A DNA stretch of 64,000 nt, taken from Myxococcaceae bacterium (lineage in GTDB: Bacteria; Myxococcota; Myxococcia; Myxococcales; Myxococcaceae). Location: assembly GCA_016926755.1 (NCBI GenBank), contig JAFGNZ010000025.1:1-64000 (forward strand). The letters are read 5' to 3'. The position numbers were made by a program, and so were the translations under genes. The notes below the pieces were generated by a model. The model was given only the letters and a program-made list of their open reading frames with translations. It did no database searches and was not told the DNA's origin. This document shows, in pieces, positions 7,833 through 32,096 of this stretch (within the stretch, counting starts at the first letter, position 1; each line of letters opens with the position of its first letter).

Positions 7833-7847
7833 GGCCAGCGCCTCGGC
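7828..7847. terminator. Hairpin between convergent histidine kinase genes
   Basis: GCTGAGGC-CAGC-GCCTCGGC, one G·T pair, no U-tract; overlaps the + strand stop codon. Confidence 0.35.
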
Positions 7848-10373: not shown

Positions 10374-10542
10374 TCACGGGAATTGACGCGCGCCGGGCGA
10401 GCTGGAATCCACTGCCCCTGGAGTCGATCGTTGAGGCTCCGACATCGCGGGCCTCCGAGATGTGTAGCTCACGCCACCGCGTGCCCAGCTGAACCCACAA
10501 GCACCGCTCGCCAGTGTCACCTGCGAGATATCCCGCGGGCCG

Positions 10543-11121
10543 TCACTCCTTCACGCGCACGGCGGAGAGCTCCTCGGCCAGCCCGTCGAGGAGCTGGACG
10601 CGGCGGGTGACGTCGAAGCCGGCGGCCTGGACGAGGGGGAAGGTGTCACGGTTGAGCCGGCACCCGCCGGTCATCCAGCACCAGGCGGGGTTGAGCCGGT
10701 CCTGGAGGCGGGCCAGCGTGGGGGAGGGGGCGCGCACGTGCTCGAGCATGCGCAGCTCCCCGCCGCGCCGGAGGACGCGGTGGATCTCCGAGAGCCCGCG
10801 CGCCGGATCCTCCACGCTGCAGAAGACGAGGCTGGAGATGACGAAGTCGAAGGACTCGTCCTTGAAGGGGAGCTCCTGCACGTTGCCCAGGACGAGCTGC
10901 ACCCCGGGGCGGCGCTTCCGGGCGCGCTCCAGGGCCTCGGAGTCGATGTCGAGCGCGGTGATGGAGGTGACGTCCTCGGGGTAGCCGGGCAGGGCCAGCC
11001 CGGTGCCGGTGCCGACCTCGAGGACGCTCCCGCGGACCTGGAGCACGAGCCGCTGGCGGGCCTCGGTGAGGCCCATCCACCCCAGCGGAGCCATCAGCGC
11101 GTCATAGAGGAGTGCCTTCAC
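10543..11121 (-). CDS. Class I SAM-dependent methyltransferase
   Basis: 'VLEVGTGTGLALPGYP', 'FDFVISSLVFCSVEDPARGLSEIHRVLRRGGEL'. Confidence 0.88.
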   Translation of the reverse strand: MKALLYDALMAPLGWMGLTEARQRLVLQVRGSVLEVGTGTGLALPGYPEDVTSITALDIDSEALERARKRRPGVQLVLGNVQELPFKDESFDFVISSLVFCSVEDPARGLSEIHRVLRRGGELRMLEHVRAPSPTLARLQDRLNPAWCWMTGGCRLNRDTFPLVQAAGFDVTRRVQLLDGLAEELSAVRVKE

Positions 11122-11151
11122 GAGGAGACCCCCAGCGGACTTCGGGCCTGG

Positions 11152-11967
11152 CTACCGCGATGTTCCTACCGCGCCTGTCGAGGTGGTCGATGCGCCCGGC
11201 TGTGAGGCGCGTTTCGTCACCAGCCCCCAGATGCCGTAGATGGCCAGGGCAATGCAGAAGTACTGGGCGGGGGTGAGCCCGAGGTAGCGCGCGTCGACGT
11301 AGCGGATGAACTCGTCGCCGGGGGGCGCGCGCAGGCTGTCGAAGAAGAAGCGGCCCGGGGCGTAGAGCAGGGCGAACAGGTGGAGGAGGCGGTTCTGGAG
11401 CTTGCCGCTGTTGCGCAGGGCGAAGAGGAGCCCGGTGATGGCGAACAGCAGGAGCGCATCGTACAGGCCGAGATCATGCCGAGGCCCGCCATAGGAGGCC
11501 GCGGGGAAGTTCACGGCCAGGAAGAAGTCGGTGCGCAGGCCCGGGTGATCATGGGCGACGAAGCAGCCGATCCGGGCCACGGCCCACCCGGGCGCCACGC
11601 CCAGGGCGAAGGCGTCCGCGTACTTCGAGAAGCTCACGCGGCGCATCCGGAAGAAGATGAAGGCGGCGATGATGCCGCCGAGCAGGCCACCGAACGAGGA
11701 CAGGCCATCCCAGACCTTGAGGATCTGGAACGGGCTCTTGGAGAGCTCCTCGGGGTGGTAGAAGAACAGGTGGAAGAGATGGCCCATCACCACGCCGATG
11801 CCCACGCCCCAGGGGGCGTAGTCATGGATCGGGTTGGGATCGAGCCCCTGCCGGGCCGCCTGCTTCACGACGATGCGCGCGGCCAGGAAGATGCCCAGCG
11901 CGACGAAGATGCCAAAGGGCTCGATGGGGCCGAGCTTCAGCGAATGCGGGTTGACGTAGGGAATCAA
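11152..11967 (-). CDS. lgt: Prolipoprotein diacylglyceryl transferase
   Basis: 271 aa; multi-TM; 'ARIGCFVAHDHPG', 'APGRFFFDSLR' as in Lgt. Confidence 0.88.
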   Translation of the reverse strand: MIPYVNPHSLKLGPIEPFGIFVALGIFLAARIVVKQAARQGLDPNPIHDYAPWGVGIGVVMGHLFHLFFYHPEELSKSPFQILKVWDGLSSFGGLLGGIIAAFIFFRMRRVSFSKYADAFALGVAPGWAVARIGCFVAHDHPGLRTDFFLAVNFPAASYGGPRHDLGLYDALLLFAITGLLFALRNSGKLQNRLLHLFALLYAPGRFFFDSLRAPPGDEFIRYVDARYLGLTPAQYFCIALAIYGIWGLVTKRASQPGASTTSTGAVGTSR

Positions 11968-12311
11968 GCAAGCTCTCCAGCAGGCGGGGGAGTCCCCCTT
12001 ACCCTCATGCCACGAACCAGAGGAACAATTCGTGGCGCCAAATCATCCGCCGCCCCCAGGCCACCTGCCGGCCATGGCTCGGGCTCTTGAACACACGGGG
12101 GTTCTTTAGCCGACACCCCCTGTGTACGCCACCGGTCACTTTCGCACACCTTCTGGGGAATGGTTCCCGATTCCGGACGTTCCGCGAATGGGGGGATGAA
12201 CCTGTACGTCTCGGATTGGGGTCTACTAAGGGAAATCCGTGATTATTTGTCAGGGGCCCTCGGTCTGATTCCACAGTGGGCCGCTGGCAGTCCGAAGTGG
12301 GGGATGTGGAG

Positions 12312-13988
12312 ATGAAAGCCGTCATGAAGCCCGGTGTGCACTACACCGGGGAGATTCATGTGAAGCTGCGAGAGACCGCTCCGGTGGCGCGCCTGGCGAT
12401 GGCGCGAGCGCCGCGGCGTCGCACGCTCACGGCCATTGCCCGGTCCGCGGGGGTGCGCGCGGTGGGCTCGCTGGTGGATGCGCTGCCTGCGCAGGCACAC
12501 CCCCACCGCACCCGGCTCTCGGCCGAGCTGCCGCACGTGAAGCCGGGCGGCGAGCTGTCGCGCTGGCACACCGTGAGCCTGCCCGGCGGCGGCGCGAAGT
12601 CGAAGCGCTCGCGGCCACCCGAGCCTCTGCGCGTGGCGATGTCCCTGCGCGGCGGTGCGGCCCCCGCGGCGCCTGGCGGTCCCTCCACGGAGGACGTGTG
12701 GGGCGCGGTGCGCGCGCTGATGGAGCAGCCGGAGGTGGAGTACGCCGAGCCGGACGCGGTGATGGTGCACCCCACCGTGGAGCTGCCGGAGCCCCAGGGG
12801 AAGAACCTCCCGCGGGACTGGCACCTGCGCGCCATCCGCGTGCCGCAGGCGTGGCGGCTCTTCGAGAAGGCCGGCCAGCTCCCCGGTGAGGGCATCCTCA
12901 TCGGGCACCTGGACACCGGCTGGACGATGCACCCCGCGGTGCCCGGGCCGGACCGGCTCATGCCGGGCGTGGACCTGTGGGACAGGCACCGGCCGGACGC
13001 GAGGGATCCGCTCGAGACGGGTCTGGGCTTCTCTCCCGGGCATGGCACGGCGACGCTCTGCCTGCTGGCGTCCAACCACGACGACTACCTGGGCCTCGCC
13101 ACCCACGCCTCCGTGCTGCCGGTGCGCGTGTCGCCCTCGGTGGTGCACGTGGCCACCCACGCCATGGCGCTGGGCATCCTCCACTGCGTCGCCCAGGGCG
13201 CCCAGGTCCTCTCCATCAGCATGGGCGGGCTGCCCAGCCGGCTCTGGGCGGACGCGGTCAACCATGCCTACGAGCGGGGCGTGGTGCTCTGCGCGGCGGC
13301 GGGCAACCACTTCCCGCTCGGCCGCTCGCTGCGCACGCCCACGAGCGTGGTGTACCCGGCGCGCTTCAACCGCGTGCTCGCCGTGGCCGGCATCACCCAC
13401 GGGCTCAAGCGCTACCGCTTCAATGATCGCATGTCGGGCAACGACGGGCCGGAGGTGGACCTGTGCGCGCCGACCCCCGAGGTGATGTGGGCCAGCCCCC
13501 CCGAGGGCTATCGGCTGGGGGGCGGCACCTCCTCCGCCACGCCCCAGGTGGCCGGAGCCGCGGCGCTCTGGCTCTCCTACCACCGCCGGGCGCTCGAGGA
13601 CTTCTCGCCCACCGAGCGGGTGGAGGCCTGCCGCCGCGCGCTGCTGCAGAGCGCCGACGACGTGGGACCCTACCCGTATCATCCCAGGCCGGAAGAGCCG
13701 TCTCGCATGCACAACGAGTACTTCGGAGATGGCCGACTGAATGTGGAGGCAGCCCTGCGCATCAAGCCCATACGCGGTCTGCAGCCCCAGCCACGGGATG
13801 ACGTGAGCGGGTCATTGCTGAAGCTGCTGGGCGTCGGTCTCCCCGCCGCCCCCGCCGGTCCCCAGGTGGACGCGGACCAGATTGAACTGCTCTGGGCCAC
13901 GCACACCGCCGGCGTGCAACAGGCCGCCCAGGCCTCGAGTGCTCCCATCGTGTCCGAGAGGCTCCGGGCGCGGCTGGAGTTGCCATGA
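12312..13988 (+). CDS. S8 family serine peptidase (subtilase) without obvious signal peptide
   Basis: Asp 'GHLDTGW', His 'GHGTATLCLLAS', Ser 'GGTSSATPQVAGAAAL'; propeptide-like 'VRALMEQPEVEYAEPDAVM'; ORF track starts at 12276, ATG at 12312 preferred. Confidence 0.88.
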   Translation: MKAVMKPGVHYTGEIHVKLRETAPVARLAMARAPRRRTLTAIARSAGVRAVGSLVDALPAQAHPHRTRLSAELPHVKPGGELSRWHTVSLPGGGAKSKRSRPPEPLRVAMSLRGGAAPAAPGGPSTEDVWGAVRALMEQPEVEYAEPDAVMVHPTVELPEPQGKNLPRDWHLRAIRVPQAWRLFEKAGQLPGEGILIGHLDTGWTMHPAVPGPDRLMPGVDLWDRHRPDARDPLETGLGFSPGHGTATLCLLASNHDDYLGLATHASVLPVRVSPSVVHVATHAMALGILHCVAQGAQVLSISMGGLPSRLWADAVNHAYERGVVLCAAAGNHFPLGRSLRTPTSVVYPARFNRVLAVAGITHGLKRYRFNDRMSGNDGPEVDLCAPTPEVMWASPPEGYRLGGGTSSATPQVAGAAALWLSYHRRALEDFSPTERVEACRRALLQSADDVGPYPYHPRPEEPSRMHNEYFGDGRLNVEAALRIKPIRGLQPQPRDDVSGSLLKLLGVGLPAAPAGPQVDADQIELLWATHTAGVQQAAQASSAPIVSERLRARLELP

Positions 13989-16238: not shown

Positions 16239-16985
16239 CTAGAAGGCGAGGCCGCCGTCCACGTCAATGGTGCGGCCGTTGAAGTAGTCGCACTCGAGGA
16301 TGAACTTCACGGCGACCCAGATGTCCTCGGGCACGCCGATGCGGCCCACGGGGATGGAGGCCACCAGCGCATCCCGGGCCTTCTGGTTCATGCCCTGGGT
16401 CATCGGCGTCTCGATCATGCCGGGGGCCACGGCGCCCACGCGGATGCCGAAGGCGGCGAACTCCTTCGACCAGGTGACGGTGTTGGCGGCGAGCGCGGCC
16501 TTGGCGGAGACGTAGTTGGACTGGCCGCGGTTGCCGTGCCGGGCGATGGAGGACATGTTGACGATGACGCCGGGCTTCTGCTCCGCCTCCACCATCTTCG
16601 CCACCACCTCACGCACCATGAGGGTGGCGCCGGTCAGGTTGACGCCGATGACGGCGTTCCAGTCCGCGGTGCTCAGCTTCTTCACCTGGCCGGTAGCCTT
16701 ATCCTTCTTCACCAACAGGGCATCGCGGAGGATGCCGGCGTTGTTGATGAGGCCGTTGAGCCCGCCCATGGCCTGGTGCGCCCAGCTGACGAAGGAGACG
16801 CAGTCCTCCTCGTTGGACACGTCGAGCCTGCGGCGGTGGATGCCGGCGGGCAGCGCGGCGAGCTTCTCCTCGCTGATGTCGCCCACGGCCACCTGGGCGC
16901 CGGCCTCGAGGAGCCGCTGCGCGAAGTGGGCGCCCATGCCCTGGGCACCGCCCGTCACCACCACCTTCAGGTCCTTGAGCTGCAT
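16239..16985 (-). CDS. SDR family NAD(P)-dependent oxidoreductase (3-oxoacyl-ACP reductase-like)
   Basis: 'VVTGGAQGMGAHFA', 'NNAG', 'YVSAK', 'ALAANTVTWSKEFA'; start taken at MQLKDLK. Confidence 0.9.
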   Translation of the reverse strand: MQLKDLKVVVTGGAQGMGAHFAQRLLEAGAQVAVGDISEEKLAALPAGIHRRRLDVSNEEDCVSFVSWAHQAMGGLNGLINNAGILRDALLVKKDKATGQVKKLSTADWNAVIGVNLTGATLMVREVVAKMVEAEQKPGVIVNMSSIARHGNRGQSNYVSAKAALAANTVTWSKEFAAFGIRVGAVAPGMIETPMTQGMNQKARDALVASIPVGRIGVPEDIWVAVKFILECDYFNGRTIDVDGGLAF

Positions 16986-17093
16986 GTGACTCTCCTGGGG
17001 AGTAAGGCGGCGCGGAGGGCCGGCCGCCGGAGAAAGTGGCGCGGAGGGTACGTCCAACACCCGGTGGCTGGCCAGTGGGGTTTCTCTGAAACC

Positions 17094-17112
17094 TGAATCG
17101 GCCTTCAACTTC
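17094..17112 (+). promoter_or_regulatory. Operator-like site A: TGAATCGGCCTTCAACTTC
   Basis: Copy of the TGAATC-N4-TTCAACTTC motif, upstream of the SDR gene. Confidence 0.75.
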
Positions 17113-17171
17113 CCATGAGCGGGGTTGCACCCTCCGCGCTCGCCGGGGCCAGGGCCGCCAGCGCCGCCGGC

Positions 17172-18155
17172 TCAGGGCTTGGGAGCGGAGGGCGCCGAGG
17201 CCGCACTCCGGGTGGCATGTGCGTACACGCTCCGGGAGATGTCCACGATGAGGGAGGTGGCCACCTTCTCGTCGGGGATGCCGCTGGTGAGCACGACGAG
17301 GACGTAGGGCGCCCGGCCTGGGGGATAGACGATGGCCGCGTCATGGAGGACGCCGGAGATCTGCCCCGTCTTGTGGGCCACGGGGGTGCCGGGAGGCAGG
17401 CCGGCGGGAATCTCGTCGTTCAGCTCCTGGGCCAGGAGGATGGCGCGCATGGCCTGGGTGGAGCGGGCCGAGGCCGCCTCCCCGCGCTCGATGGCGATCA
17501 GCAGCGTGGCGAGCTCCCTCGCGCTGGCGGTGTTGTTGAGCCCCTGCTGGTACGCCTTCCCGTCCTCCACCCCGCGCAGCACGGTCATCTTCCGCGCGCC
17601 CAGGGTGCGCAGGGTCTGGGTGACGCGCTGGGCGTCCACCAGCGCGATGATCAGGTTGGTGGCCAGGTTGCTGGAGCGGGTGATCATCCGCTCCAGCAGC
17701 TCTCGCGCCGGCACAGGCCTGCCGAGGCGCTCATAGAGCGCCGCGTCCTCATCCTCCTTGGCGTCGAGCGAGTACGGCGAGCCATCCACGATGGAGGCGA
17801 ACTGGTTGACGAGCGGGATGGGCTGGTCGAGCGACAGCTTGCCGGCGTCCACCTGGCGGAAGAACTCGATCATCACCGGGACCTTCATGGTGCTGGCGGC
17901 GTGGAAGGAGCGGTCGGCCTCCAGGGACACCGCGTCCTTCGCGTCGCCGAGATCCTGGTAGACCACCGCCACGGTGGCGCCCTTCACCTGGGCGATGCGC
18001 GCCTGGAGGGCGCCGCGGAGGGCTTCGGGGCCCGAGGGGGTGGCCATGAGCATGACGAGCAGCGCGGTCTGGAGCATGAGAGGATGGGCGGTGAGAGGGA
18101 GGGGGCGGCGCGGCGCGTCCATGACGCAGGAGGCCATGCGCGGAGGTTTTGACAA
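17172..18155 (-). CDS. Serine beta-lactamase-like / penicillin-interactive hydrolase (class A fold)
   Basis: 'STMK' (SxxK), 'SSN' (SxN), 'HKTG' (KTG) in order; possible alternative start at 18077 (MLQTALL…). Confidence 0.82.
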   Translation of the reverse strand: MSKPPRMASCVMDAPRRPLPLTAHPLMLQTALLVMLMATPSGPEALRGALQARIAQVKGATVAVVYQDLGDAKDAVSLEADRSFHAASTMKVPVMIEFFRQVDAGKLSLDQPIPLVNQFASIVDGSPYSLDAKEDEDAALYERLGRPVPARELLERMITRSSNLATNLIIALVDAQRVTQTLRTLGARKMTVLRGVEDGKAYQQGLNNTASARELATLLIAIERGEAASARSTQAMRAILLAQELNDEIPAGLPPGTPVAHKTGQISGVLHDAAIVYPPGRAPYVLVVLTSGIPDEKVATSLIVDISRSVYAHATRSAASAPSAPKP

Positions 18156-18188
18156 GCCCGTCAGCGCGGTGCTACCCGTAGCTGAAAC

Positions 18189-18896
18189 ATGAATCGCCCT
18201 TCAACTTCATCCGCGCGCACGCTCCCCGTCACGCCCCGAGGCCAGAAGACGCGCCAGAAGTTGCTGCGAGCGGCCGAGGTCATCTTCGGAGAGAAGGGCT
18301 ATGAGCGCGCCTCCATCGCGGATATTACCCGCAAGAGCGGCGTGGCGCTGGGGACTTTCTACGTCTACTTCCCGGACAAGCAGTCCATCTTCGTGGAGGT
18401 GGTGGATGAGCTGGGCGAGCGCCTGCGGCGCCTCATCGCCGAGTCCGTCACGGGCCTCACCCACCGGCTCGACGTGGAGCGCGAGGGCCTGCGCGCCTTC
18501 TTCGAGTTCGCCCGCGAGCACCCCAACCTCTACCGCGTGGTCCGCCAGGCCGAGTTCGTGGACGAGGCCTGCTACCGCCGCTACTACGACCGCTTCGCCA
18601 AGGGCTATGTGCGCGGGCTCACCCAGGCCATGGAGGCCGGGGAGATCCGCCGCATGGATCCGGAGAGCCTGGCCTACTGCCTGATGGGCATCGGCGACTT
18701 CCTCGGCATGCGCTGGGTCATCTGGGAGGAGGATCCCGGCCTGGAGCGCGTGCTGGACACCGCGATGACGCTGATCCGCCACGGGCTGGACCTGCGCCCC
18801 GCGCCCCGGGCCGGCAAGGCGTCCTCCAAGCGCGCCCCCTCTTCCGCCAAGCGCGGCGCCCGCACCGCGCGCAACACCCTCCGGAGCATGGCATGA
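18189..18896 (+). CDS. TetR/AcrR family transcriptional regulator
   Basis: N-terminal HTH 'TRQKLLRAAEVIFGEKGYERASIADITRKSGVALGTFYVYFPDKQSI'. Confidence 0.92.
   Translation: MNRPSTSSARTLPVTPRGQKTRQKLLRAAEVIFGEKGYERASIADITRKSGVALGTFYVYFPDKQSIFVEVVDELGERLRRLIAESVTGLTHRLDVEREGLRAFFEFAREHPNLYRVVRQAEFVDEACYRRYYDRFAKGYVRGLTQAMEAGEIRRMDPESLAYCLMGIGDFLGMRWVIWEEDPGLERVLDTAMTLIRHGLDLRPAPRAGKASSKRAPSSAKRGARTARNTLRSMA
18190..18208 (+). promoter_or_regulatory. Operator-like site B: TGAATCGCCCTTCAACTTC
   Basis: Same motif overlapping the annotated TetR start codon, in the TetR/beta-lactamase-like divergent gap. Confidence 0.75.
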
Positions 18897-19888
18897 GATA
18901 CGCGCAGATCCTCTCCACCGGTCGCTACGTCCCCGAGAAGGTCATCACCAACGGGGACATGGATCGCCTGCTCGGCGAGCCCGTGGGCGACTGGCTGGTG
19001 CAGAACGTGGGCATCCGCGAGCGGCACGTGATGGCGGAGGACCAGGCCACCTCGGACCTGTGCGTGGCCGCCGCGCGGCAGGCCCTGGAGCGCGCCGGCA
19101 CGAGCCCCGCGGAGCTGGACCTCGTCATCGTCGCCACGGACACCCCGGACTACCTCAGCCCGGCCACCTCCTCGGTGGTCCAGGCCAAGCTGGGGGCGGT
19201 GAACGCCGGCACGTATGATCTCAACTGCGCCTGCGCCGGCTGGGTGACGGCGCTGGACGTGGCCAGCAAGACCATCGCCGCGGACGAGAGCTACAAGCGC
19301 GTCCTCGTGCTGGGCGCGTACGGCATGACGCGCTACGTCAACTGGAAGGACAAGAAGACGTGCACGCTCTTCGCGGATGGCGCGGGCGCGGTGGTGCTGG
19401 GCGCGGGTGACAAGCCCGGCTTCATGGGCGCCAGGCTGCTGGCCAACGGCGAGTACCACGACGCGCTGGGCATCTACACCGGCGGCACGTCCCGCCCGGC
19501 CACCGCGGAGACGCTCGCGCTCACCGGCGGCAAGCCCGCGGTGCAGTTCGTCCGCAAGTTCCCCTCCACCTTCAACACCGAGCGCTGGCCCCAGCTGCTG
19601 GACATCCTGCTCAAGCGCGCCGGCCTCGAGCTGAAGGACGTGAGCCAGTTCGTCTTCACCCAGCTCAACCTGCGCACCATCGAGGCCACCATGAAGGTGC
19701 TCGGCCAGCCGATGGAGAAGGCGCACTACACCATGGACAAGTGGGGCTACACGGGCTCGGCCTGCATCCCCATGACGCTCGACGACGCGGTATTGCAGGG
19801 CAAGGTGCGGCGCGGAGACCTGGTGGCCTTCTGCGCCAGCGGCGGCGGGCTGTCCATGGCCTCGGCGCTCTACCGCTGGACGGCTTGA
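18893..19888 (+). CDS. KAS III (FabH)-like thiolase-fold protein with non-canonical His/Asn positions
   Basis: 'DLNCACAGW' nucleophile Cys; 'FTQLNLRT' replaces PHQAN; 'KWGYTGSACIP' replaces HGNTSAASVP; ATGA overlap with TetR gene. Confidence 0.88.
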   Translation: MRYAQILSTGRYVPEKVITNGDMDRLLGEPVGDWLVQNVGIRERHVMAEDQATSDLCVAAARQALERAGTSPAELDLVIVATDTPDYLSPATSSVVQAKLGAVNAGTYDLNCACAGWVTALDVASKTIAADESYKRVLVLGAYGMTRYVNWKDKKTCTLFADGAGAVVLGAGDKPGFMGARLLANGEYHDALGIYTGGTSRPATAETLALTGGKPAVQFVRKFPSTFNTERWPQLLDILLKRAGLELKDVSQFVFTQLNLRTIEATMKVLGQPMEKAHYTMDKWGYTGSACIPMTLDDAVLQGKVRRGDLVAFCASGGGLSMASALYRWTA

Positions 19889-19925
19889 GCCGCACGGAGC
19901 GGCACGTAGACCTGGAGGCAGGCGC

Positions 19926-21491
19926 ATGTTCATCGGCGATTGGATGGGGCGGGGTGCCCTGTACTGGCCGGAGCACATGGCGGTGGTGGATGTGGCCAAG
20001 GGGGACGCTGGCCGCTTCACCTACCGCGCGCTGAACGCTCGCGCCGAGGCGCTGGGCGGCTGGCTGCGCGACGTGGCCGGCGTGAAGCCCGGGGAGCGCG
20101 TGGGCCTGGTGGCCCACAACGGCGTGGAGTACCTGGATGCGCTCTTCGCCTGCGGGAAGATCGGCGCCATCTTCGTGCCCTACAACTGGCGCCTCCACGC
20201 CCAGGAGCTGACGGACCTGGTGCGCGACACCACGCCGCGCGTGCTGCTCTACGGTGACGACTTCCACGACAGCGTGGCCCAGGTGAAGGAGCGCCTCGGT
20301 GACGCGCTGCGCCTGGTCCACCTGGAGACGAAGGGCCTGCCGGGGAGCATGCCCTACGCGGAGACGCTGCTGCACCAGCCCGCCGCGCCGGTGGTGAACG
20401 CGCAGGTGGATGCCGAGGACATCCTCTGCCTGCTCTTCACCGGCGGCACCACCGGCCGCTCCAAGGGCGCCAAGGTGTCCTACCGCATGGTGGCGTGGAA
20501 CACGCTGAACACGCTGGTCCACGAGGTGCGGCCAGGGGACGTCACCATCACCCACACGCCCATGTTCCACACGGGCGGGCTGCTCGTGTACACGGTGCCG
20601 CTGCTCACCGCGGGCGGCACCGTCGTCATCATGCGCCGGTGGGATCCGGAGGAGCTGCTCACGCTCCTCGAGCGAGAGAAGGTGACGCTCTTCTTCGCGG
20701 TGCCCACGCAGTACCAGCAGCTCCACGACGCGCCGCGCTTCCGCGAGACGGACTTCTCCCGCGTGCGCTTCATGACGAGCGGCGGCGCGCCCATGCCCGT
20801 GCCCCTCATCCAGGCGTGGCAGGCCGTCCACTCGGTGCCCTTCAAGCAGGGCTTCGGGATGACGGAGTTCGGCCCCGGCCTCTTCAGCATGGGCCCCGAG
20901 TTCGCCATCTCCAAGGCGGGCTCCATCGGCCGGCCCAACTACTTCATCGACGCGAAGCTGGTGGACGACGACGGCCGCGAGGTGCCCGTGGGGGAGGTGG
21001 GCGAGCTGGTCCTCAAGGGCCCCTCCATGTGCTCCGGCTACTTCAACGACGAGGCCGCCACGAAGGAGGCGATCGACGCCCAGGGCTGGCTCCACACGGG
21101 AGATCTGGCCCGCCGGGACGCGGACGGCTTCTTCACCATCGCCGGGCGCAAGAAGGACATGTTCATCTCCGGCGGAGAGAACGTGTACCCGCTGGAGCTG
21201 GAGACGGCGCTCTACGAGCACCCCGCGGTGCAGCAGTGCGCGGTGGTGGGCGTGCCCGACGCGAAGTGGGGCGAGGTGGGGCGCGCCTTCGTGGTGCTCA
21301 AGCCGGACGCCGCCGCCGCCCCCGAGGAGCTGCTGGCGCACCTGAGGGAGCGGGTAGCGCGCTTCAAGGTGCCGAAGAAGGTGGAGCTGCTGGAGCGCAT
21401 GCCGGTGTCCGCCGCGGGGAAGATCCTCAAGCGGGAGCTGCGGCAGGCGGCCATCGCGGCGGACGCGCGCGGCCAGGAGCAGGGCCGATGA
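19926..21491 (+). CDS. Acyl-CoA synthetase (AMP-forming)
   Basis: 'FTGGTTGRSKGAK', 'HTGDLARRDADGFFTIAGRKKDMFISGGENVYP', 'AAGKILKREL'. Confidence 0.92.
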   Translation: MFIGDWMGRGALYWPEHMAVVDVAKGDAGRFTYRALNARAEALGGWLRDVAGVKPGERVGLVAHNGVEYLDALFACGKIGAIFVPYNWRLHAQELTDLVRDTTPRVLLYGDDFHDSVAQVKERLGDALRLVHLETKGLPGSMPYAETLLHQPAAPVVNAQVDAEDILCLLFTGGTTGRSKGAKVSYRMVAWNTLNTLVHEVRPGDVTITHTPMFHTGGLLVYTVPLLTAGGTVVIMRRWDPEELLTLLEREKVTLFFAVPTQYQQLHDAPRFRETDFSRVRFMTSGGAPMPVPLIQAWQAVHSVPFKQGFGMTEFGPGLFSMGPEFAISKAGSIGRPNYFIDAKLVDDDGREVPVGEVGELVLKGPSMCSGYFNDEAATKEAIDAQGWLHTGDLARRDADGFFTIAGRKKDMFISGGENVYPLELETALYEHPAVQQCAVVGVPDAKWGEVGRAFVVLKPDAAAAPEELLAHLRERVARFKVPKKVELLERMPVSAAGKILKRELRQAAIAADARGQEQGR

Positions 21492-22747
21492 CGGCGGAGG
21501 TGTCGGTGGCACCCGCGCAGCAGCTGCCCTGGTGGAGGGAGCCCACGAGGGCGCAGTGGAGCTCCTTCCTGGCCGCCTGGGTGGGGTGGATCCTCGACGC
21601 GTTCGACTTCACCATCTTCCTGCTGCTGATGCCGAGCATCACGAAGGAGTTCGGCGTCAGCGTCACCGCCACCGCGGGCGCCATCACCCTCACGCTCCTG
21701 GTGCGGCTGCTGGGCGGCCTGGTGGCGGGCGCGGCGGCGGACAGGTGGGGGCGCAAGCTGCCGTTGATGATCTCCATCCTCTGGTTCGCCCTGTGCGACG
21801 GGGCGGTGTACTTCGCGCCGACCTTCTTCTGGGTGCTGGTGCTGCGCACGCTCTTCGGCTTCGGCATGGGGGCGGAGTGGACGAGCGGCTCCACGCTGGC
21901 CATGGAGAACTGGCCCGAGCGCAGCCGCGGAATCGCCTCGGGGATCCTCCAGGGGGGCTTCGCCATCGGCTTCATCCTGGCCGGGATCGTCTGCGCCCTC
22001 GTGGCGCCGCGGTGGGGCTGGCGCGTGGTCTTCCTCATCGCCGCCGTCCCCGCGCTGCTGGTGCTGCCCATCCGCTTCTGGGTGATTGAGAGCCCCGAGT
22101 GGAAGAAGGCGGCGGCGAAGGTGAAGCAGCCGCTGGGCGAGCTGCTGCGGCGGGGGCTGCTGACGCGGCTCGCCTGGGCCTCCGCGGTGATCGCGTTCGG
22201 CTTCGGGGCCTACCAGGGGCTCACCGGCGTGTACTCCGTCATGCTGGTGAAGCAGTATGGCCTCACCCAGCAGGGCATCATGCCGCTCGTCATCCTCTTC
22301 AACCTCGGCACCATGATCGGAGCCGTGGCCTGCGGCGCGCTGGTGATGCGGCTGGGCCTGAGGTGGGCGGTGGCCATCCCGTCGCTCGGAGTGCTGCCCT
22401 TCCTCCCGCTCTATGTGGGGATGGTCCCCGGGGGATTGGCGCCGGGGGCCTTCCTGGGCGGCCTGCTGGGGGCGGCCTGCACCGGCATCGCCCCCCTGCT
22501 GCTCACCTCCTTGTTCCCACCCGACGTCCGCGGCAAGTGCGTGGGGCTCGTCTACCACGCGGGCTCCTTCGCCGGCGCCTTCGTCGCCATGGGCGTGGCC
22601 GCGCTCGCGGAGCATGGAGGCGTCACCTTCGCCCAGGCCATCGCGCTGGTGGTGGGCCTGAGCGAGATAGGCATCGTCGCCCTGATCTGGCTGCGCCCCA
22701 AATCCACCGAGGGCGAGGTGGGCGCCACGGCGCCCGCACTGCACTGA
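21488..22747 (+). CDS. MFS transporter
   Basis: 12-TM pattern; 'AADRWGRKLPL' MFS signature; ATGA overlap with upstream ligase. Confidence 0.88.
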   Translation: MTAEVSVAPAQQLPWWREPTRAQWSSFLAAWVGWILDAFDFTIFLLLMPSITKEFGVSVTATAGAITLTLLVRLLGGLVAGAAADRWGRKLPLMISILWFALCDGAVYFAPTFFWVLVLRTLFGFGMGAEWTSGSTLAMENWPERSRGIASGILQGGFAIGFILAGIVCALVAPRWGWRVVFLIAAVPALLVLPIRFWVIESPEWKKAAAKVKQPLGELLRRGLLTRLAWASAVIAFGFGAYQGLTGVYSVMLVKQYGLTQQGIMPLVILFNLGTMIGAVACGALVMRLGLRWAVAIPSLGVLPFLPLYVGMVPGGLAPGAFLGGLLGAACTGIAPLLLTSLFPPDVRGKCVGLVYHAGSFAGAFVAMGVAALAEHGGVTFAQAIALVVGLSEIGIVALIWLRPKSTEGEVGATAPALH

Positions 22748-22832
22748 AGTCATCCGTGGGAGGTTCGCGCCGGGGGGCCTCCCGCATCATGTCGTCCCGG
22801 CAGTTCCGCCGGAAGAAATGAGGAGTACCCGT

Positions 22833-23432
22833 ATGAAGAAGAAGCTGCTGTCCGCGGTGATGCTGTGCGCGCTGGGGTTCGTGGGCTGTGGAGGGGACGA
22901 CGACATCATCAAGCCTCCCCCGGTGCCGAAGTTCGACACGGCCGAAAACATTCGTAACTACCTCGACGGCAAGTCGCTGCTGATGGAGGGGGCCAACATC
23001 CCCAGTCACCCCAACGGCTTCAACGAGGATGTCGACTATGGCGCTTACACGCAGTGCTACCAGAAGGTGCAGATGAGCGTCTCTGGCGGCAACTTCAACG
23101 TGACCAGCACCCTGGGCACCGTGCGCAATGGCGCGTGTGATCACGACGCGGTCTCGGGGACCCAGAACTTCCTCTCGACGGCCGTCCTCATCGAGAACGT
23201 GAAGGCGGATGCCTCGTGCTTTGACATCTCGGTGAGCTACAACGGCTTCTCGCAGGTCGGGCGCGGCAAGATGAGTGAGGATGGCAAGACGCTCACCCTG
23301 GAGCTCTACTTCGGAGGCCAGGCCTCCGGTGCCACCTGTGAGGCCGGGGCGGTTGGCTCGCAGACCGTGACGCTCAACACGCAGGCGTTCACCGGCAACG
23401 CGCAGCAGGTCTACACCGTCTCCGCGCAGTGA
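22833..23432 (+). CDS. Predicted lipoprotein, hypothetical
   Basis: MKKKLLSAVMLCALGFVGCGGDDD lipobox. Confidence 0.75.
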   Translation: MKKKLLSAVMLCALGFVGCGGDDDIIKPPPVPKFDTAENIRNYLDGKSLLMEGANIPSHPNGFNEDVDYGAYTQCYQKVQMSVSGGNFNVTSTLGTVRNGACDHDAVSGTQNFLSTAVLIENVKADASCFDISVSYNGFSQVGRGKMSEDGKTLTLELYFGGQASGATCEAGAVGSQTVTLNTQAFTGNAQQVYTVSAQ

Positions 23433-23483
23433 TGTGCCCGCGCGCCTCGCGCGCCCTGGCTTCTTCCCATTCGAGAGGGGTTT

Positions 23484-25145
23484 ATGACGTGGTGCTTGAA
23501 GGCTGAAGCAGGCAGGGCCCGGCGGGGAGGCGCGACGGCGCTCGCCCTGATGGTGGCCGGGCTCTCACTCTCCGCGAGCGCGGGTCCGACGACGGTGCCG
23601 GGCGCGTACTACGGGAAGTGGGAAGAGGAGAAGGATCGCGAGGAGGACGCGGAGCCGCGGGAGTTCACCTTCATCAACTACTTCTTCACGCGCGGCACGG
23701 TCACCAATCAGGTGGGGGATCCGAGCGGCCTCAAGGGTGTGTCGCTCGGGCCCATCGGCAACCCCGCGGGCAGCGCGGTGCGCGTGGAGGACCTGACCGC
23801 CTACTACATCGAGCAGCGCTGGATCCCGGTCATCGAGTACAGCCCGTGGTTCGTGGACGGGCTGGCCAGCTTCCGCGCCCAGTTCGAGGTGGACTTCCTC
23901 TGGGGGCGCGCGGCCAACACCATCCAGCCCAACGAGGGCGGCGGCTTCAACGCGGACCAGGTCAACATCCAGACCAAGAACGTCAACGTCGCCCTCTACC
24001 CGTTCCGCAACCCCAACACGCTCACGCTGCTCATCGGCGCCCAGCCCGTCTATGACACCTACTTCGACCCGACGCGCACGCCGCTCAATGACATCATCCG
24101 CACCGGCTACAAGCTCACCTTCCTGGGCAGCGACGCGACAGGCATCACCGTCTTCAGCAACTACTTCAAGGGGCTGGCGAAGCTGAGCTGGCTGCCCCTG
24201 GGGAATGCTCAGGTGGACAAGGGGACCACGGGAGATCCGCGCCTGAAGTACATCTGGTTGCTCACCGCGGACTACGCCTATCCGGTACAGCCAGGGACGA
24301 ACGTGGGTGTCTCCGGCTGGCTCCTGCGCGACGACACCCAGGGAGAGGCCTTCGCCTTCGAAGGGCTGGTGAGGAGCGGCCCGTCCTCCGCGGGCCTGAG
24401 CGGCTTCACCGGTACCGCGCGCTTCAACATCGAGCGGCCCACGGGCACGGCGTTCTGGCTGGGCGCCAACTTCCACCACAACATCGACTTCCGCACGGGG
24501 CCGCTCGGGGCCTCCGGCTTCCTCATGTACAACGGAGGTGCGTATCGCAGCAGAAGCGCGGACACGACCGGTAACCGCGAGGTGGAGATCAGCGGCCTGT
24601 CCGCCAACGCGGAGGTGCTCTACAACTGGGGCCGCACGCCCAACGACGTGGTGTCGCTCGAGGGCCTCTACACCACGGGCGACAAGGACCTGACTGACGG
24701 CCGGTACACGAGCGCCTTCACCCTCAACATGTACGGCCTGCCGGGCGCGGTGTGGTTCAACCACAAGACGCTGCTGCTGTTCCCCTTCACCAGCACGGCC
24801 AACAACTACACGGGCGCGGTGACGGACATCTCCAACCAGGGCTACGGCCTGCGCGCGGCCATCGCCACCGGCGCGATGGACCTCATCCCCAACAAGCTGA
24901 ACCTGAAGCTGGGCACGGCCCTGGCCACCAGCGACGTGACGCCGCCGCGCTGGAGGGAGGACGTGCCGCGCGGGCGCTTCATCGGCGCCGAGGTGAACGC
25001 GGAGCTGAAGTACCACATCCGCTACCTCATGACGGTGGGCCTGCACGCCGGCTACATGTTCAAGGGCAGCTTCTATGACGGGGCGGAGCGCGTGACGCGC
25101 AACCCCTGGGCCACCTTCACCACCTTCACCTGGTACGCGTTCTGA
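23484..25145 (+). CDS. Predicted outer-membrane beta-barrel protein
   Basis: Signal-like N-terminus (SLSASAG); alternating beta pattern; terminal aromatic '…TFTTFTWYAF'. Confidence 0.65.
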   Translation: MTWCLKAEAGRARRGGATALALMVAGLSLSASAGPTTVPGAYYGKWEEEKDREEDAEPREFTFINYFFTRGTVTNQVGDPSGLKGVSLGPIGNPAGSAVRVEDLTAYYIEQRWIPVIEYSPWFVDGLASFRAQFEVDFLWGRAANTIQPNEGGGFNADQVNIQTKNVNVALYPFRNPNTLTLLIGAQPVYDTYFDPTRTPLNDIIRTGYKLTFLGSDATGITVFSNYFKGLAKLSWLPLGNAQVDKGTTGDPRLKYIWLLTADYAYPVQPGTNVGVSGWLLRDDTQGEAFAFEGLVRSGPSSAGLSGFTGTARFNIERPTGTAFWLGANFHHNIDFRTGPLGASGFLMYNGGAYRSRSADTTGNREVEISGLSANAEVLYNWGRTPNDVVSLEGLYTTGDKDLTDGRYTSAFTLNMYGLPGAVWFNHKTLLLFPFTSTANNYTGAVTDISNQGYGLRAAIATGAMDLIPNKLNLKLGTALATSDVTPPRWREDVPRGRFIGAEVNAELKYHIRYLMTVGLHAGYMFKGSFYDGAERVTRNPWATFTTFTWYAF

Positions 25146-25147
25146 CC

Positions 25148-26203
25148 ATGACGACTCCTCGCGCCGCCACGGCCCTGCTGCTCTTCGCCGCGCTCGCCTC
25201 GGGTTGTGTCCGCTCCTACCGAGCCGAGCCGCCGCTCACCTTCCAGGACTTCCCCTACACCTCGCTCCAAGGGCCGGCGTGGCCGCTCAAGCGCCTGGCC
25301 CTGTCGAAGACGGCGCAGGCCCACCAGCTGGCCACTGTCCCGGAGGTGGCCTACGTGGAGCTCAACCCCGAGGGCCAGCGCACGCTCGTCTTCATCCACG
25401 GGCTGGGCTCGTACCTGAAGTTCTGGCGCTACCAGCTCGACACCTTCGCGGCGCAGGGCTACCGCGTCATCGCGGTGGACCTGCCCGGCTACGGCAAGTC
25501 CGACAAGCCGGCCACCTTCCCGTACACCATGGAGGCCATGGCGGACGCGGTGCGCGAGCTGGTGCTCGCGCTCGGAGTCGACCGGCCCGTGCTGGTGGGG
25601 CACTCGATGGGTGGGCAGACGGCGCTCTCCTACGCCATCCGCTACCCGGAGGAGCCCGCCGCGCTGGTGCTCACCTCGCCCGCCGGCTTCGAGAAGTTCA
25701 CCTGGAAGGAGAAGGCGTGGTTCAAGCGCGTCTTCAGCACCGTGCTCATCAAGTCCTCGCCCGAGTACGGCATCTGGGGCAGCGTGCGGCAGTCCAACTT
25801 CTCGCGCTGGCGCCCGGAGCTGGAGTGGCTCATCGAGGAGCGCGTGCGCGTCGTGTCCTCGCCGGAGTTCGACGCCTACGCCTACGCCAACGTGCGCACC
25901 GTGCACGGGCTGTCCCAGAACGACTTCGTGCGCGACAGCCTCGGCCACATCCAGGCGCCGACGATCATCGTCTTCGGTGAGGATGATCGGCTCATCCCCA
26001 ACCCCTTCCTGCACGGCGGGCGGGCCCGGGAGATCATGGAGTACGGGCACGCGGGCATCCGCGGCTCGCAGCTGGTGGGGCTGGAGCGCTGCGGCCACTC
26101 GGTGCAGCTCGACTGCCCCGAGGAGTACAACGCGGCCGTGAGCGCGTTCCTGGCGAAGCTGCCGGCCCCCGCGACGGAGCCGGCCCCCGCGCCAGTGCCG
26201 TGA
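25148..26203 (+). CDS. Alpha/beta hydrolase, predicted lipoprotein
   Basis: Lipobox 'LASGC'; 'GHSMGGQTALSYA'; 'HGLGS'; catalytic Asp/His regions. Confidence 0.88.
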   Translation: MTTPRAATALLLFAALASGCVRSYRAEPPLTFQDFPYTSLQGPAWPLKRLALSKTAQAHQLATVPEVAYVELNPEGQRTLVFIHGLGSYLKFWRYQLDTFAAQGYRVIAVDLPGYGKSDKPATFPYTMEAMADAVRELVLALGVDRPVLVGHSMGGQTALSYAIRYPEEPAALVLTSPAGFEKFTWKEKAWFKRVFSTVLIKSSPEYGIWGSVRQSNFSRWRPELEWLIEERVRVVSSPEFDAYAYANVRTVHGLSQNDFVRDSLGHIQAPTIIVFGEDDRLIPNPFLHGGRAREIMEYGHAGIRGSQLVGLERCGHSVQLDCPEEYNAAVSAFLAKLPAPATEPAPAPVP

Positions 26204-26242
26204 GGCGGAAGGGGAGCGGTGGCTCCCCTCCGTGCCTCGCCG

Positions 26243-27271
26243 CTACGGGATGGTGTGGTTCCGCACCATGCTGTACTGGACGCTGCCGGTGAGGTCCTTC
26301 GAGTTGAAGTGTCCGTACGGGTACGCGGTGTACATCTTCTCTCCGGTCTGCCCGGGGATTCGCGCCGTGTACTCGTAGTAGACGATGCCGCCGTAGCCGA
26401 TGATCTCGTCCACCGTGGAGTGGATGGAGTAGCGGTAGGCCCCCTCATAGCGGCTGCTGGACATCAGGTTCTCCAGGTACGCCGAGCGGCCCGACACGCC
26501 GAAGCCATTCCACCACCCCGGGTACAGGCCGTTGGTGGAGCCGCAGGTGGGCGTGGTGGGCCCCGTCTGGTAGCAGCTCGTCAGGCCCCGGTTGGCCCCC
26601 GCGATGCCGACGAAGGTGTCCACCGATGAGGTGAGCGGCGGGCCCACGTAGTACTGGCCGCCCTCCAGCGCGTCCGTGGCGTAGCCACCGAGGATGGCCT
26701 TGCGCGCCAGCGTCACGCCCATCGAGTGCGCGATGATGTCCACCTTGGTCGCGCCGGTGTACGCCTTCACCGCCTCGATGAACTTGCGGATCTTCATCAC
26801 GTACGTCTTCGAGTGGTACTGCTGCGACGAGAGCGCCGCGCTCGCCGGGCCCCACGTCGTGGCGTACAGCTCGCTCGTCTTGTAGCCCTTGGACTGGAAG
26901 TACTCGATCGATGCGTTCCAGCCCGACTGGCCCGCGGTGCCCGTGCCGATCGCCTTGTCCGAGTTGCCGTGGATGAAGATGACCGGCTGGTTCACCACCG
27001 TGTCCGTGCTGCTCGCCTTGCCGCCGTAGCTGCCGCCGACCAGATCGTCACGCACCAGGTTGTACTGGGGCTCATAGCCGTTGGCCTGCAGCCACTGGCG
27101 GAAGTGCGAGGTGAAGCCCGCCGTGGAGACGGCCGCCGCCTCCTGCGTGGCGAGCGCTCCCGCCGGGGCCTCGGTGTTCACGTCGACAGGTTCGGTTCCG
27201 TCGCCGCAGCCGGCGGACAGGGGACCCAGGCACAGCGCACCCAGCAACGACAGGGAAGAGCCCAGACGCAT
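26243..27271 (-). CDS. Lipase (alpha/beta fold), predicted lipoprotein
   Basis: '[25 protein letters not shown]' lipobox; '[15 protein letters not shown]' nucleophile elbow; start adjusted from 27364. Confidence 0.78.
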
Positions 27272-27372
27272 CGCGTTTCTCCTTGAGACGGGGGATCGCC
27301 CACTCGCGGACGGAGCAGGCACGCGCCGGAGTAACGGATTTCCGCTGGAAAGGCTGTCAGTCAAATGGCCGC

Positions 27373-27391
27373 GAAGTTGAATCCTGATTCA
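27373..27391 (-). promoter_or_regulatory. Operator-like site D (minus strand): TGAATCAGGATTCAACTTC
   Basis: Same motif upstream of the lipase gene; core TGAATC-AG-GATTCA is a perfect palindrome. Confidence 0.75.
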
Positions 27392-27452
27392 CCCATGACG
27401 CACCGCGGGGTGGCTCCAGCTTCAACTTTCCCGGAATGACGCACCGGAAAGG

Positions 27453-27471
27453 TGAATCACCCTTCAACTTC
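27453..27471 (+). promoter_or_regulatory. Operator-like site C: TGAATCACCCTTCAACTTC
   Basis: Same motif upstream of the MFS transporter gene. Confidence 0.75.
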
Positions 27472-27594
27472 ATTTGCTCGCGATGGAGCCTCTTTGGTAG
27501 GGATGCGGTCAACGCGAAGAGCCAACCTCCGCCCTCCGGCCGAGGCCCCTCCCGCGGAGCGCGCGTCAGCGGGCGGCGCGACGGAGGCAAGCAC

Positions 27595-28965
27595 ATGGAG
27601 CCCCACCCGGCCGGTACACCGGCGCCCTCGCAAAGCTCGCAGCACTCGATCCTGAAGGTGGCCGCGGCCAGCTTCATCGGCACGGCCATCGAGTGGTACG
27701 ACTTCTTCCTCTATGGCATGGCGGCGGCGCTCGTCTTCAACCGCCTGTTCTTCCCTTCGTTCGATCCGCTGACGGGCACGCTGGCCGCGTTCGCCACCTT
27801 CGCCGTCGGCTTCGTCGCCCGCCCGGTGGGTGGGGTGGTGTTCGGGCACTTCGGGGACAAGCTCGGCCGCAAGACGATGCTGAGCGCCACCTTGATGATC
27901 ATGGGCGCGGCGACGTTCCTGGTGGGGCTGCTGCCCACCTATGAGAGCATTGGCGCGTGGGCCCCCGCACTGCTCGTCTTCCTGCGGCTGCTCCAGGGCT
28001 TCGGGCTGGGCGGAGAGTGGGGCGGGGCGGTGCTGATGGCCGTGGAGCATGCGCCCGCGCACCGGCGCGGCTTCTATGGGAGCTGGCCGCAGATGGGCGC
28101 CCCCGCGGGCATGCTCGTGGCCACGGCCGTGCTCTCTGCCTTCTCCCGGATGCCCGAGGCGACGTTCCTCGCCTGGGGCTGGCGCATCCCGTTCCTGCTC
28201 AGCGCCGTGCTCATCGGCATCGGGGTATTCATCCGCCTGAGCGTGGCCGAGTCCCCCGTCTTCGAGCAGCGCAAGCGGGAAGCGCAGGAGTCTGGCCCCC
28301 CGGTGCTCGAGGTGCTGCGCAAGTACCCCCGGCAGATCCTCCTGGCCATGGGGGCGCGCTTCGCGGAGAACGGCTGCTACTACATCATCAGCACCTTCGT
28401 GCTGACCTATGGCACGGAGCGGCTCGGGCTCCCGCGCACCTCGGTGCTCAACGGTGTGCTCGCGGCCAACGTTGTCCACCTGCTGGCCATCCCGGTGTTC
28501 GGTGCCGCCTCGGACCGCTTCGGCCGCCGCCCGGTGTACCTGGCCGGCGCGGTCGGGTGTGGCCTGCTGGCCTTCCCCTTCTTCTGGCTCCTCGACACGA
28601 AAGAGGTGTTTCTCATCGGGCTGGCCATCTCGCTGGGCTTCATCGCCCACGCGGCCATGTATGGGCCCCAGGCCAGCTTCTTCTCCGAGCTGTTCGGCAC
28701 TCGCGTCCGCTACAGCGGCGCATCGCTCGGGTACCAGCTCGCCTCCGTGTTCGCGGGTGGGCTGTCCCCCGTCATCGCCACCGTCCTGCTCGCGAAGTCC
28801 GGCGGTCAGTCCTGGCCCATCTCCATCTACGTCATCGGGCTCTCCGTCATCACCCTCGCCTCGGTGTACCTCTCCGCGGAGACCTTCCGCGAGCGGCTGA
28901 CCGATGAGGCGCCCGCCGCGGCCCAGGCGGGCGCGGGGGGCTCGCAAGGCCGGGACGCGGCGTGA
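27595..28965 (+). CDS. MFS transporter, metabolite:H+ symporter-like
   Basis: 'GTAIEWYDFFLYG…', 'FGHFGDKLGRKTML', 'GLGLGGEWGGA'; start adjusted from 27436. Confidence 0.9.
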   Translation: MEPHPAGTPAPSQSSQHSILKVAAASFIGTAIEWYDFFLYGMAAALVFNRLFFPSFDPLTGTLAAFATFAVGFVARPVGGVVFGHFGDKLGRKTMLSATLMIMGAATFLVGLLPTYESIGAWAPALLVFLRLLQGFGLGGEWGGAVLMAVEHAPAHRRGFYGSWPQMGAPAGMLVATAVLSAFSRMPEATFLAWGWRIPFLLSAVLIGIGVFIRLSVAESPVFEQRKREAQESGPPVLEVLRKYPRQILLAMGARFAENGCYYIISTFVLTYGTERLGLPRTSVLNGVLAANVVHLLAIPVFGAASDRFGRRPVYLAGAVGCGLLAFPFFWLLDTKEVFLIGLAISLGFIAHAAMYGPQASFFSELFGTRVRYSGASLGYQLASVFAGGLSPVIATVLLAKSGGQSWPISIYVIGLSVITLASVYLSAETFRERLTDEAPAAAQAGAGGSQGRDAA

Positions 28966-29026: not shown

Positions 29027-30565
<1,539 letters not shown>

Positions 30566-30575
30566 GCCTGCCGCC

Positions 30576-32096
30576 ATGACGCCCATCGTCCACGACTGGC
30601 TGGCCCGACGCGCCTGGCTCTCGCCGGACCGCGTCGCGCTCATCGACACCTTGAGCGGCGGGCGGCGCATCACCTTCCGCGAGTGGAACGCCACCGCCAA
30701 CCGCACCGCCCGCCTGCTGCACGACACGCTCGGCGTGCGGCGAGGAGATCGCGTCGCGGTGCTGGCGATGAACTGCGTGGAGTACCTGGACCTGCTCTTC
30801 GCCTGCGCCAAGCTGGGCGCCATCCTCCAGCCGCTCAACTGGCGCCTCAGCCCCGAGGAGCTCAAGGGGCTGCTCGCGGACGCGGAGCCCCTCGTCCTCG
30901 TCTACGGCCCCGACTTCCAGGCCCAGGTGGACGCCGTGCGCCTCCACGCCTGCAGCGTGCGCCACGTGGTGCCGCTGGTGGACTCGCCTGGCCGGCTCGC
31001 CACGGACGTCCCCTTCGCCGCGAGGGACTCGCTGGCGGACACGCCCCCTCCGCCCCTGGAGCTGGAGGCGGGCGATCCGTGGGTGCTCTGCTACACGGGC
31101 GGCAGCACCGGGCTCCCCAAGGCCGCCATCCTCACCCACGGCTCCATCACCGCCAACGCGGCCAACACCGTGGTGAGCTGGGGCCTCACCGCGGAGGACG
31201 TGGCGCTGCTCAACGCGCCGCTTTTCCACACCGGCGGCCTCAACGTCTTCACCACGCCCCTGGTGTACGTGGGCGGCGCGTCCGTGGTGTGCCGCGGCTT
31301 CGACGTGGAGCAGGTGCTGGACCTGGTGGATCGCGGAGAGGTGAGCCTCGTCTTCGGCGTGCCCACCATGTTCATCGAGCTGCAGCGCCACCCGCGCTTC
31401 GACACGGTGGACTTCTCACGCCTCAAGCTGCTCATCAGCGGCGGGGCGCCATGCCCCGCGCCCGTCTTCGAGCGCTTCTTCGCCCGCGGCGTGGCCTTCA
31501 AGACGGGCTACGGCCTCACCGAGGCGGGGCCCAACAACTTCTGGCTGCCGCCTGGAGAGGTGCGGCGCAAGCCGGGGGCGGTGGGCGTGCCCCTCTTCCA
31601 CATCGAGGCCCGGCTGGAGGGGGACGGCGAGGTGGGCGAGCTGCTCCTGCGCGGGCCGCATGTCTGCGCGGGCTACTGGCGCCGGCCCGAGGAGACCGCC
31701 AGGGCCCTGGCCGGCGGCTGGCTGCACACGGGCGATCTGGCGGAGCGCGACGCGGACGGGTGCTACCGCATCGTCGGCCGCGTGAAGGATCTCATCATCT
31801 CCGGAGGGGAGAACATCTACCCCGCCGAGGTGGAGAGCGTGCTCGCCGGGCATCCGGAGGTGGCGGAGGTGGCCATCATCGGCGTGCCGGATCCGAAGTG
31901 GGGCGAGGTGCCTCGTGCGCTCGTCGTCCCGCGTCCCGGGGCCGCCCTCACCGCGGAGGCGCTGCTGGCGTATTGCCAGGGGAGGCTGGCCCGCTACAAG
32001 GCGCCGAAGACGGTGCGCTTCGTGGATGCCCTGCCGCGCACCGCCGCGGGCAAGGTGGATCGCCGCGAGCTGGCCGCGCGGCACGGCGCACCCTGA
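30576..32096 (+). CDS. Acyl-CoA synthetase (AMP-forming)
   Basis: 'YTGGSTGLPKAAILTH', 'GRVKDLIISGGENIYPAEVE', 'AAGKVDRREL'. Confidence 0.92.
   Translation: MTPIVHDWLARRAWLSPDRVALIDTLSGGRRITFREWNATANRTARLLHDTLGVRRGDRVAVLAMNCVEYLDLLFACAKLGAILQPLNWRLSPEELKGLLADAEPLVLVYGPDFQAQVDAVRLHACSVRHVVPLVDSPGRLATDVPFAARDSLADTPPPPLELEAGDPWVLCYTGGSTGLPKAAILTHGSITANAANTVVSWGLTAEDVALLNAPLFHTGGLNVFTTPLVYVGGASVVCRGFDVEQVLDLVDRGEVSLVFGVPTMFIELQRHPRFDTVDFSRLKLLISGGAPCPAPVFERFFARGVAFKTGYGLTEAGPNNFWLPPGEVRRKPGAVGVPLFHIEARLEGDGEVGELLLRGPHVCAGYWRRPEETARALAGGWLHTGDLAERDADGCYRIVGRVKDLIISGGENIYPAEVESVLAGHPEVAEVAIIGVPDPKWGEVPRALVVPRPGAALTAEALLAYCQGRLARYKAPKTVRFVDALPRTAAGKVDRRELAARHGAP

Follow-up and report, generated by a model that had tools for sequence, protein, structure and literature searches.

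In the window analysed here, a stretch of 64,000 nucleotides from a Myxococcaceae bacterium (contig JAFGNZ010000025.1), the repeated motif TGAATC-N4-TTCAACTTC is very probably the binding site of the FadR-like TetR-family regulator encoded next to it (tetR, 18189..18896, plus strand, Pfam TetR_N), a protein that likely responds to acyl-coenzyme A (acyl-CoA). The pattern occurs exactly at 17094-17112(+), 18190-18208(+), 27373-27391(-) and 27453-27471(+), the four positions given in an earlier note on this DNA, and shuffled windows yielded 0.15 matches per window even with three mismatches allowed. These four are the only exact copies in the bacterium's own 9.59-Mb genome, where the pattern read backwards, our control, gave no match even at two mismatches. 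A fifth site with one mismatch (C370:38411-38429) lies on another contig and precedes a gene for a TonB-dependent receptor, which is 78% identical to a receptor of another genome (G042) whose gene is preceded by an exact, identically arranged operator. With up to one mismatch, the motif is hence confined to this locus plus one TonB-receptor promoter.

An alignment of 57 distinct sites extends the operator by conservation in the 5' direction to about 25 bp, GAAAsnTGAATCrnnyTTCAACTTC. Operator A (17088..17112, core 17094-17112, plus strand) lies upstream of a gene for a short-chain dehydrogenase (SDR), reversed relative to it, and operator C (27447..27471, core 27453-27471, plus strand) abuts the predicted -35 element of the transporter gene MFS2. 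Operator D (27373..27391, minus strand) is located upstream of the lipase gene and is devoid of the GAAA flank; between D and C, the window scan found a degenerate third copy with three mismatches (27411..27429, plus strand). Operator B (18184..18208, core 18190-18208, plus strand) had been assigned to the gap between tetR and a beta-lactamase-like gene, but it instead covers the tetR start codon and codons 1-7: since the TG of its TGAATC belongs to the tetR ATG at 18189, it encodes residues 1-7 of the regulator. Likewise, the inner palindrome described for all copies is a perfect dyad, TGAATC-AG-GATTCA, in copy D only, while copies A-C retain TGAA-N6-TTCA. A second repeated element near D and C, TGACGCAYYGC, was discarded, having one match in the window, not above chance; the joint pattern of TGACGCAYYGC and TGAATC had no match in the genome.

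Across 96 genomes of the family, the exact pattern is found 91 times, in 58 genomes, and the reversed control in none. Fifty copies lie exactly on codon 1 of a tetR ortholog, 32 within 15 kb of tetR, and nine elsewhere. tetR is present in 57 of the 58 motif-bearing genomes, and the motif is absent from 24 of the 25 genomes without a detected tetR (Fisher p = 7.5e-12, a value that overstates independence because genomes and not independent events were counted). The random genomic distribution that, according to the earlier note, would have refuted control by TetR was looked for as well; what we see is a motif confined to the locus plus a TonB-receptor promoter and associated with tetR. As to the nine copies elsewhere, those in G055, G063, G064 and G073 are near a remote operon containing MFS2, the one in G061 is flanked by the same promoter as that operon, and those in G017 and G074 precede SDR; of the remaining copies, one precedes a TonB receptor and one (G036:C2:5794906, L071) lies within a coding sequence, lacks the GAAA flank and was judged a chance match. 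TonB receptor genes are located at 7585-10044(-) in L085 and 10043-12436(+) in L069.

The motif stays upstream of SDR even where other genes push SDR 2-12 kb away from tetR, and in close relatives it is also kept upstream of lipase and MFS2. The MFS2 operon of Myxococcus and Pyxidicoccus relatives is found at another location, and its first genes encode a lipase-like and a probable barrel protein; its promoter and operator are nearly identical to site C, and in two genomes three tandem operator-like sites precede it (L076 9466-9560, L087 10213-10272). Judged by sequence, the operator is conserved well enough to define the putative target genes of the regulator: it accompanies both tetR and the neighbouring target genes, and this arrangement recurs in relatives, as expected of an autoregulated local regulon.

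The constraint is most evident at the start of tetR. In 54 distinct orthologs beginning ATG-AAY, codon 2 is AAT, codon 4 ends in T, codon 5 is TCA and codon 6 ends in CT, each in 54/54. In the rest of tetR, AAT accounts for 5.8% of Asn, TCA for 1.5% of Ser and ACT for 1.9% of Thr codons, and the GC content at third codon positions is 0.94. Residues 1-8 are modelled as disordered, with a predicted local distance difference test score (pLDDT) below 50. Because synonymous sites are frozen to rare A/T-ending codons and residues 1-8 are of low confidence, the constraint is best read as acting on DNA, and conservation of MNRPSTS at the protein level was rejected. With its operator fixed in the first codons, tetR is a clean case of codon bias giving way to regulatory constraint.

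The site is also found beyond the phylum. TetR orthologs are 52-64% identical in Anaerolineales, Caldilineaceae and other Chloroflexi metagenome-assembled genomes (MAGs) and 49% identical in an Acidimicrobiia MAG, and in their genes the site, slightly altered, again covers the start codon, in the Chloroflexi behind a TTGACA-type promoter. In three Chloroflexi genomes a relaxed pattern occurs once without mismatch, at tetR. Downstream of these genes follow KASIII-fold and acyl-CoA-ligase genes and in some cases also hydrolase genes. We infer that the cassette has been shared horizontally among phyla, although MAG binning errors are possible. In the Acidimicrobiia MAGs L139-L142, operator-like sites also lie just upstream of tetR; two of them overlap in L142, where, 12 bp apart and on opposite strands, they form a near-perfect 30-bp palindrome that might accommodate two dimers.

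The regulator itself (TetR_N, E 4.3e-13) is predicted to form nine helices. Its best solved relative is FadRSa of the archaeon Sulfolobus acidocaldarius (6EL2/6EN8; E 2.6e-33, nearly full length, ~34% identity), followed by the next-best structure at E 2.5e-15, and all seven top matches of a fold search are FadRSa, with template modelling (TM) scores to the target of up to 0.91. FadRSa represses a 30-kb cluster of lipase and beta-oxidation genes until acyl-CoA releases it; its response to the ligand requires R73 and R86, and G48, Y51 and Y53 are important for DNA binding (PMC6449355). In 70 orthologs of the regulator described here, the equivalents of the CoA-contacting R73 and R86, of F97 in the acyl pocket, and of the DNA-contacting G48, Y51 and Y53 are invariant. 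Both systems have few genomic sites, one lipid-gene cluster with lipases, the regulator's own gene among the targets, and semi-palindromic operators (in FadRSa by description). In contrast to the archaeal protein, the bacterial one has an operator over its start codon, some operators at fixed upstream positions, and KASIII, MFS and TonB-receptor genes among its predicted targets.

Bacillus FadR (PDB 3WHB/3WHC), to whose sites the earlier note had likened the motif, shares the TetR fold and the control of fatty-acid genes, and its half sites are of the TGAAT/ATTCA type, resembling the motif here. Bacillus FadR ranks below FadRSa by sequence and fold, and its profile NF053878 gives 44 bits versus a curated cut-off of 200. 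M. xanthus has an isovaleryl-CoA regulator of the TetR family, AibR; no AibR-named entry is among the 60 solved structures listed, and no orthology comparison with AibR was made. The ligand entry sides of FadRSa and Bacillus FadR differ (PMC6449355). AcuR of Rhodobacter sphaeroides is, as predicted here, a TetR repressor encoded by the first gene of a leaderless autoregulated operon; unlike here, its ligand is acrylate and its operator, TAATAGAC-N6-GTCTATTA, overlaps the promoter, whereas operator B runs into codon 7 (PMC3017554).

Altogether, we consider it probable that the sites are operators of the TetR protein, as a bacterial relative of FadRSa, and that the system works as follows. Without ligand, a TetR dimer on operator B, lying across transcription start and start codon, would shut its own operon off. 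Lipase and hydrolase would free fatty acids from food or prey, which the acyl-CoA ligases would activate; acyl-CoA would then bind the TetR protein and release it from DNA, turning on tetR-KASIII-ligase-MFS-lipoprotein-OMP-hydrolase and, via the fifth site, the TonB receptor. Bound upstream of SDR, lipase and the MFS2/ligase operon, the protein would control these genes from about -50 to -62. What the sequence shows are the sites with their conservation and position, their constraint at the DNA level, their co-occurrence with tetR and the homology of the regulator; we infer binding by TetR, direction of regulation, ligand and leaderless start.

Several observations do not favour this account. 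FadRSa residues K77, M101, F111 and R132 are not kept in the 70 orthologs, being replaced by Ala/Gly/Ser/Thr, Val/Ala/Ile, Val and Gly/Ser, respectively; we thus claim the protein only as a relative of the FadRSa type. The acyl-CoA sensing proposed previously has homology on its side, with FadRSa as top match and R73, R86 and F97 invariant, yet these four positions do not fit it. Furthermore, the M. xanthus gene numbers (MXAN) used below for comparison with predation data were assigned by gene order only, and a plain repressor would not usually have operators at a fixed upstream distance, as seen for SDR and lipase.

The last point deserves closer attention. The predicted tetR promoter, TTGACA-N18-TACCCG (18149..18178, plus strand), has a layout kept across orthologs, and the transcript is predicted to start 2-4 nt before the ATG and would probably be leaderless. 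tetR and TonB-receptor genes have in common a -35 element, ~18 bp, a TAC/TAG-type -10 element and an operator over the predicted start. At SDR (predicted -10 element GTACCCT, 17045..17051, minus strand), the operator is 42-43 bp from GTA(G/C)CCT in 27/27 sequences with a recognisable element, although the distance from the predicted -10 to the ATG varies from 31 to 78 bp. Likewise, it is 38-39 bp from the predicted -10 element of the lipase gene (GTTACT, 27330..27335, minus strand) in 6/6 relatives. The predicted MFS2 promoter, TTTGCT followed by TGGTAGGGA (27473..27503, plus strand), is kept in L079, L088 and L170. Estimated operator centres relative to the predicted starts are ~+10 for tetR, ~-61 for SDR, ~-62 for lipase and ~-50 for MFS2. 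Since the operators form two positional classes, control by TetR may include more than plain repression, and the fixed upstream distances at SDR and lipase suggest a second, perhaps activating, mode. In Archangium-type divergent loci, a single operator is common to tetR and SDR, and no GTA(G/C)CCT-type -10 element was recognised there.

A regulator with dual action, repressing where the operator covers +1 (tetR operon, TonB receptor) and activating SDR, lipase and the MFS2 operon from upstream of weak -35 elements, is therefore a serious rival, because a constant spacing combined with weak -35s is how activator sites are arranged; we regard it as a real possibility, albeit one that we lean against. 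Indeed, a good TTGACA is present at the tetR promoter, whereas the -35s of the others are weak; at MFS2 the operator adjoins the -35, some relatives have it there in tandem, and activators of the TetR family exist, such as FasR (PMC7382501). On the other hand, FadRSa is a pure repressor (PMC6449355), the start sites are predicted only, and the same sign of control would be more likely if the hydrolase/lipase MXAN_0220 is co-induced with MXAN_0215/0216 in predation. Extending the dual scheme, we offer a tentative and rather doubtful proposal in which a FadRSa-type regulator, a kind so far described from archaea, would also belong to a bacterial cassette (TetR, KASIII-fold protein, acyl-CoA ligase, hydrolase) spread horizontally among Myxococcota, Chloroflexi and Acidimicrobiia and have its operator within its own first seven codons. 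In myxobacteria, it would control the uptake of prey lipids in a dual, position-dependent manner, as a repressor at +1 and as an activator near -61.

It appears unlikely that TetR binds the sites but responds to a different ligand, for instance a free fatty acid, a 3-hydroxyacyl-CoA or an acyl-CoA that is branched or aromatic. The altered pocket lining at the four positions named above would fit such a ligand, the lipase also resembles a polyhydroxyalkanoate (PHA) depolymerase, and the KASIII is atypical. The latter (18893..19888, plus strand, Pfam ACP_syn_III), whose gene overlaps tetR by 4 bp, keeps the catalytic Cys in alignments to FabH structures (CACAGW), while the catalytic His is replaced by Thr (FTQLN for PHQAN) and the Asn by Tyr (GYTGSAC for GNTSAAS); the changes are kept in family orthologs and mostly also in an Anaerolineales MAG ortholog (L132, 70% identical). 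The protein is probably not a normal decarboxylating condensing enzyme. Against a different ligand stand the invariant CoA-contacting R73 and R86 and the presence of three acyl-CoA ligases and of lipases in the regulon.

That the motif is read by a different transcription factor or by a sigma factor, TetR being just one target, is far less credible. In its favour, TetR binding to the sites is a prediction, and an Lrp/AsnC gene lies near tetR in Myxococcus; however, neither the window nor the Archangium-type loci that keep the motif showed an Lrp gene between SDR and tetR, and the motif tracks tetR across genomes and phyla, the tetR start often being the sole site across phyla. A sigma-factor promoter was ruled out, as neither the orientation of the motif nor its position relative to genes is constant. 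Chance, a dispersed repeat or a coding by-product, to which only the match inside a coding region in G036 would correspond, is refuted by the lack of control matches in 96 genomes, the conserved positions, the frozen synonymous sites, the co-occurrence of motif and tetR, and N4 and flanks that vary, unlike those of a copied element.

The locus reads SDR(-), beta-lactamase-like(-), tetR-KASIII-ACS1-MFS1-lipoprotein-OMP-hydrolase(+), lipase(-) and MFS2-ACS2-ACS3(+). The SDR is FabG-like (16239..16985, minus strand, Pfam adh_short_C2). In this genus, SDR and tetR flank the class A beta-lactamase-like gene (17172-18125, minus strand); Myxococcus has genes for an aminotransferase and an Lrp/AsnC regulator there instead. 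Following KASIII on the plus strand are the acyl-CoA ligase ACS1 (19926..21491, Pfam AMP-binding), the transporter MFS1 (21488..22747, Pfam MFS_1, 4-bp overlap with ACS1), a putative lipoprotein (LIPO, 22818..23432) and a putative outer-membrane protein (OMP, 23484..25145), both without Pfam match and kept in the operon of relatives, and an alpha/beta hydrolase with a lipobox-like signal (ABH, 25148..26203, Pfam Abhydrolase_1). The lipase (26243..27271, minus strand, Pfam Lipase_2) is divergent to MFS2 (27595..28965, plus strand), a member of the metabolite:H+ symporter family (NCBIfam TIGR00883, above its cut-off), which is followed on the same strand by the acyl-CoA ligases ACS2 (29027..30565) and ACS3 (30576..32096; both Pfam AMP-binding).

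In summary, the regulator would add to the acyl-CoA-responsive TetR regulators a new member whose regulon is defined. The analysis gives a defined operator and a target list for a regulator that no open paper we found describes, from predators about whose feeding on lipids little is understood, and it connects a bacterial system with an archaeal mode of ligand binding that is reported to differ from that of bacterial FadR. Our literature search found no paper naming MXAN_0214, and a search on the motif sequence had only unrelated papers among the matches listed. The analysis also offers one explanation for the rise of MXAN_0215 and MXAN_0216, an induction that counts in favour of the proposed regulon; both are upregulated in M. 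xanthus predation on Sinorhizobium, the latter as the only one among six ligase paralogs (PMC9548883). In the M. xanthus locus (L121), SDR, aminotransferase and Lrp lie on one side of tetR and KASIII and ligase on the other; by gene order, MXAN_0215 is apparently the KASIII ortholog and MXAN_0216 the ligase ortholog. MXAN_0220, a hydrolytic enzyme of outer-membrane vesicles listed among the upregulated hydrolases, falls at the hydrolase/lipase end, and MXAN0219 is listed as an outer-membrane barrel (PMC3222651), the exact assignment of MXAN 0217-0220 being uncertain. A Myxococcus-type locus is also carried by a record titled Comamonas sp. KCTC 72670 (L107), which is probably mislabelled.

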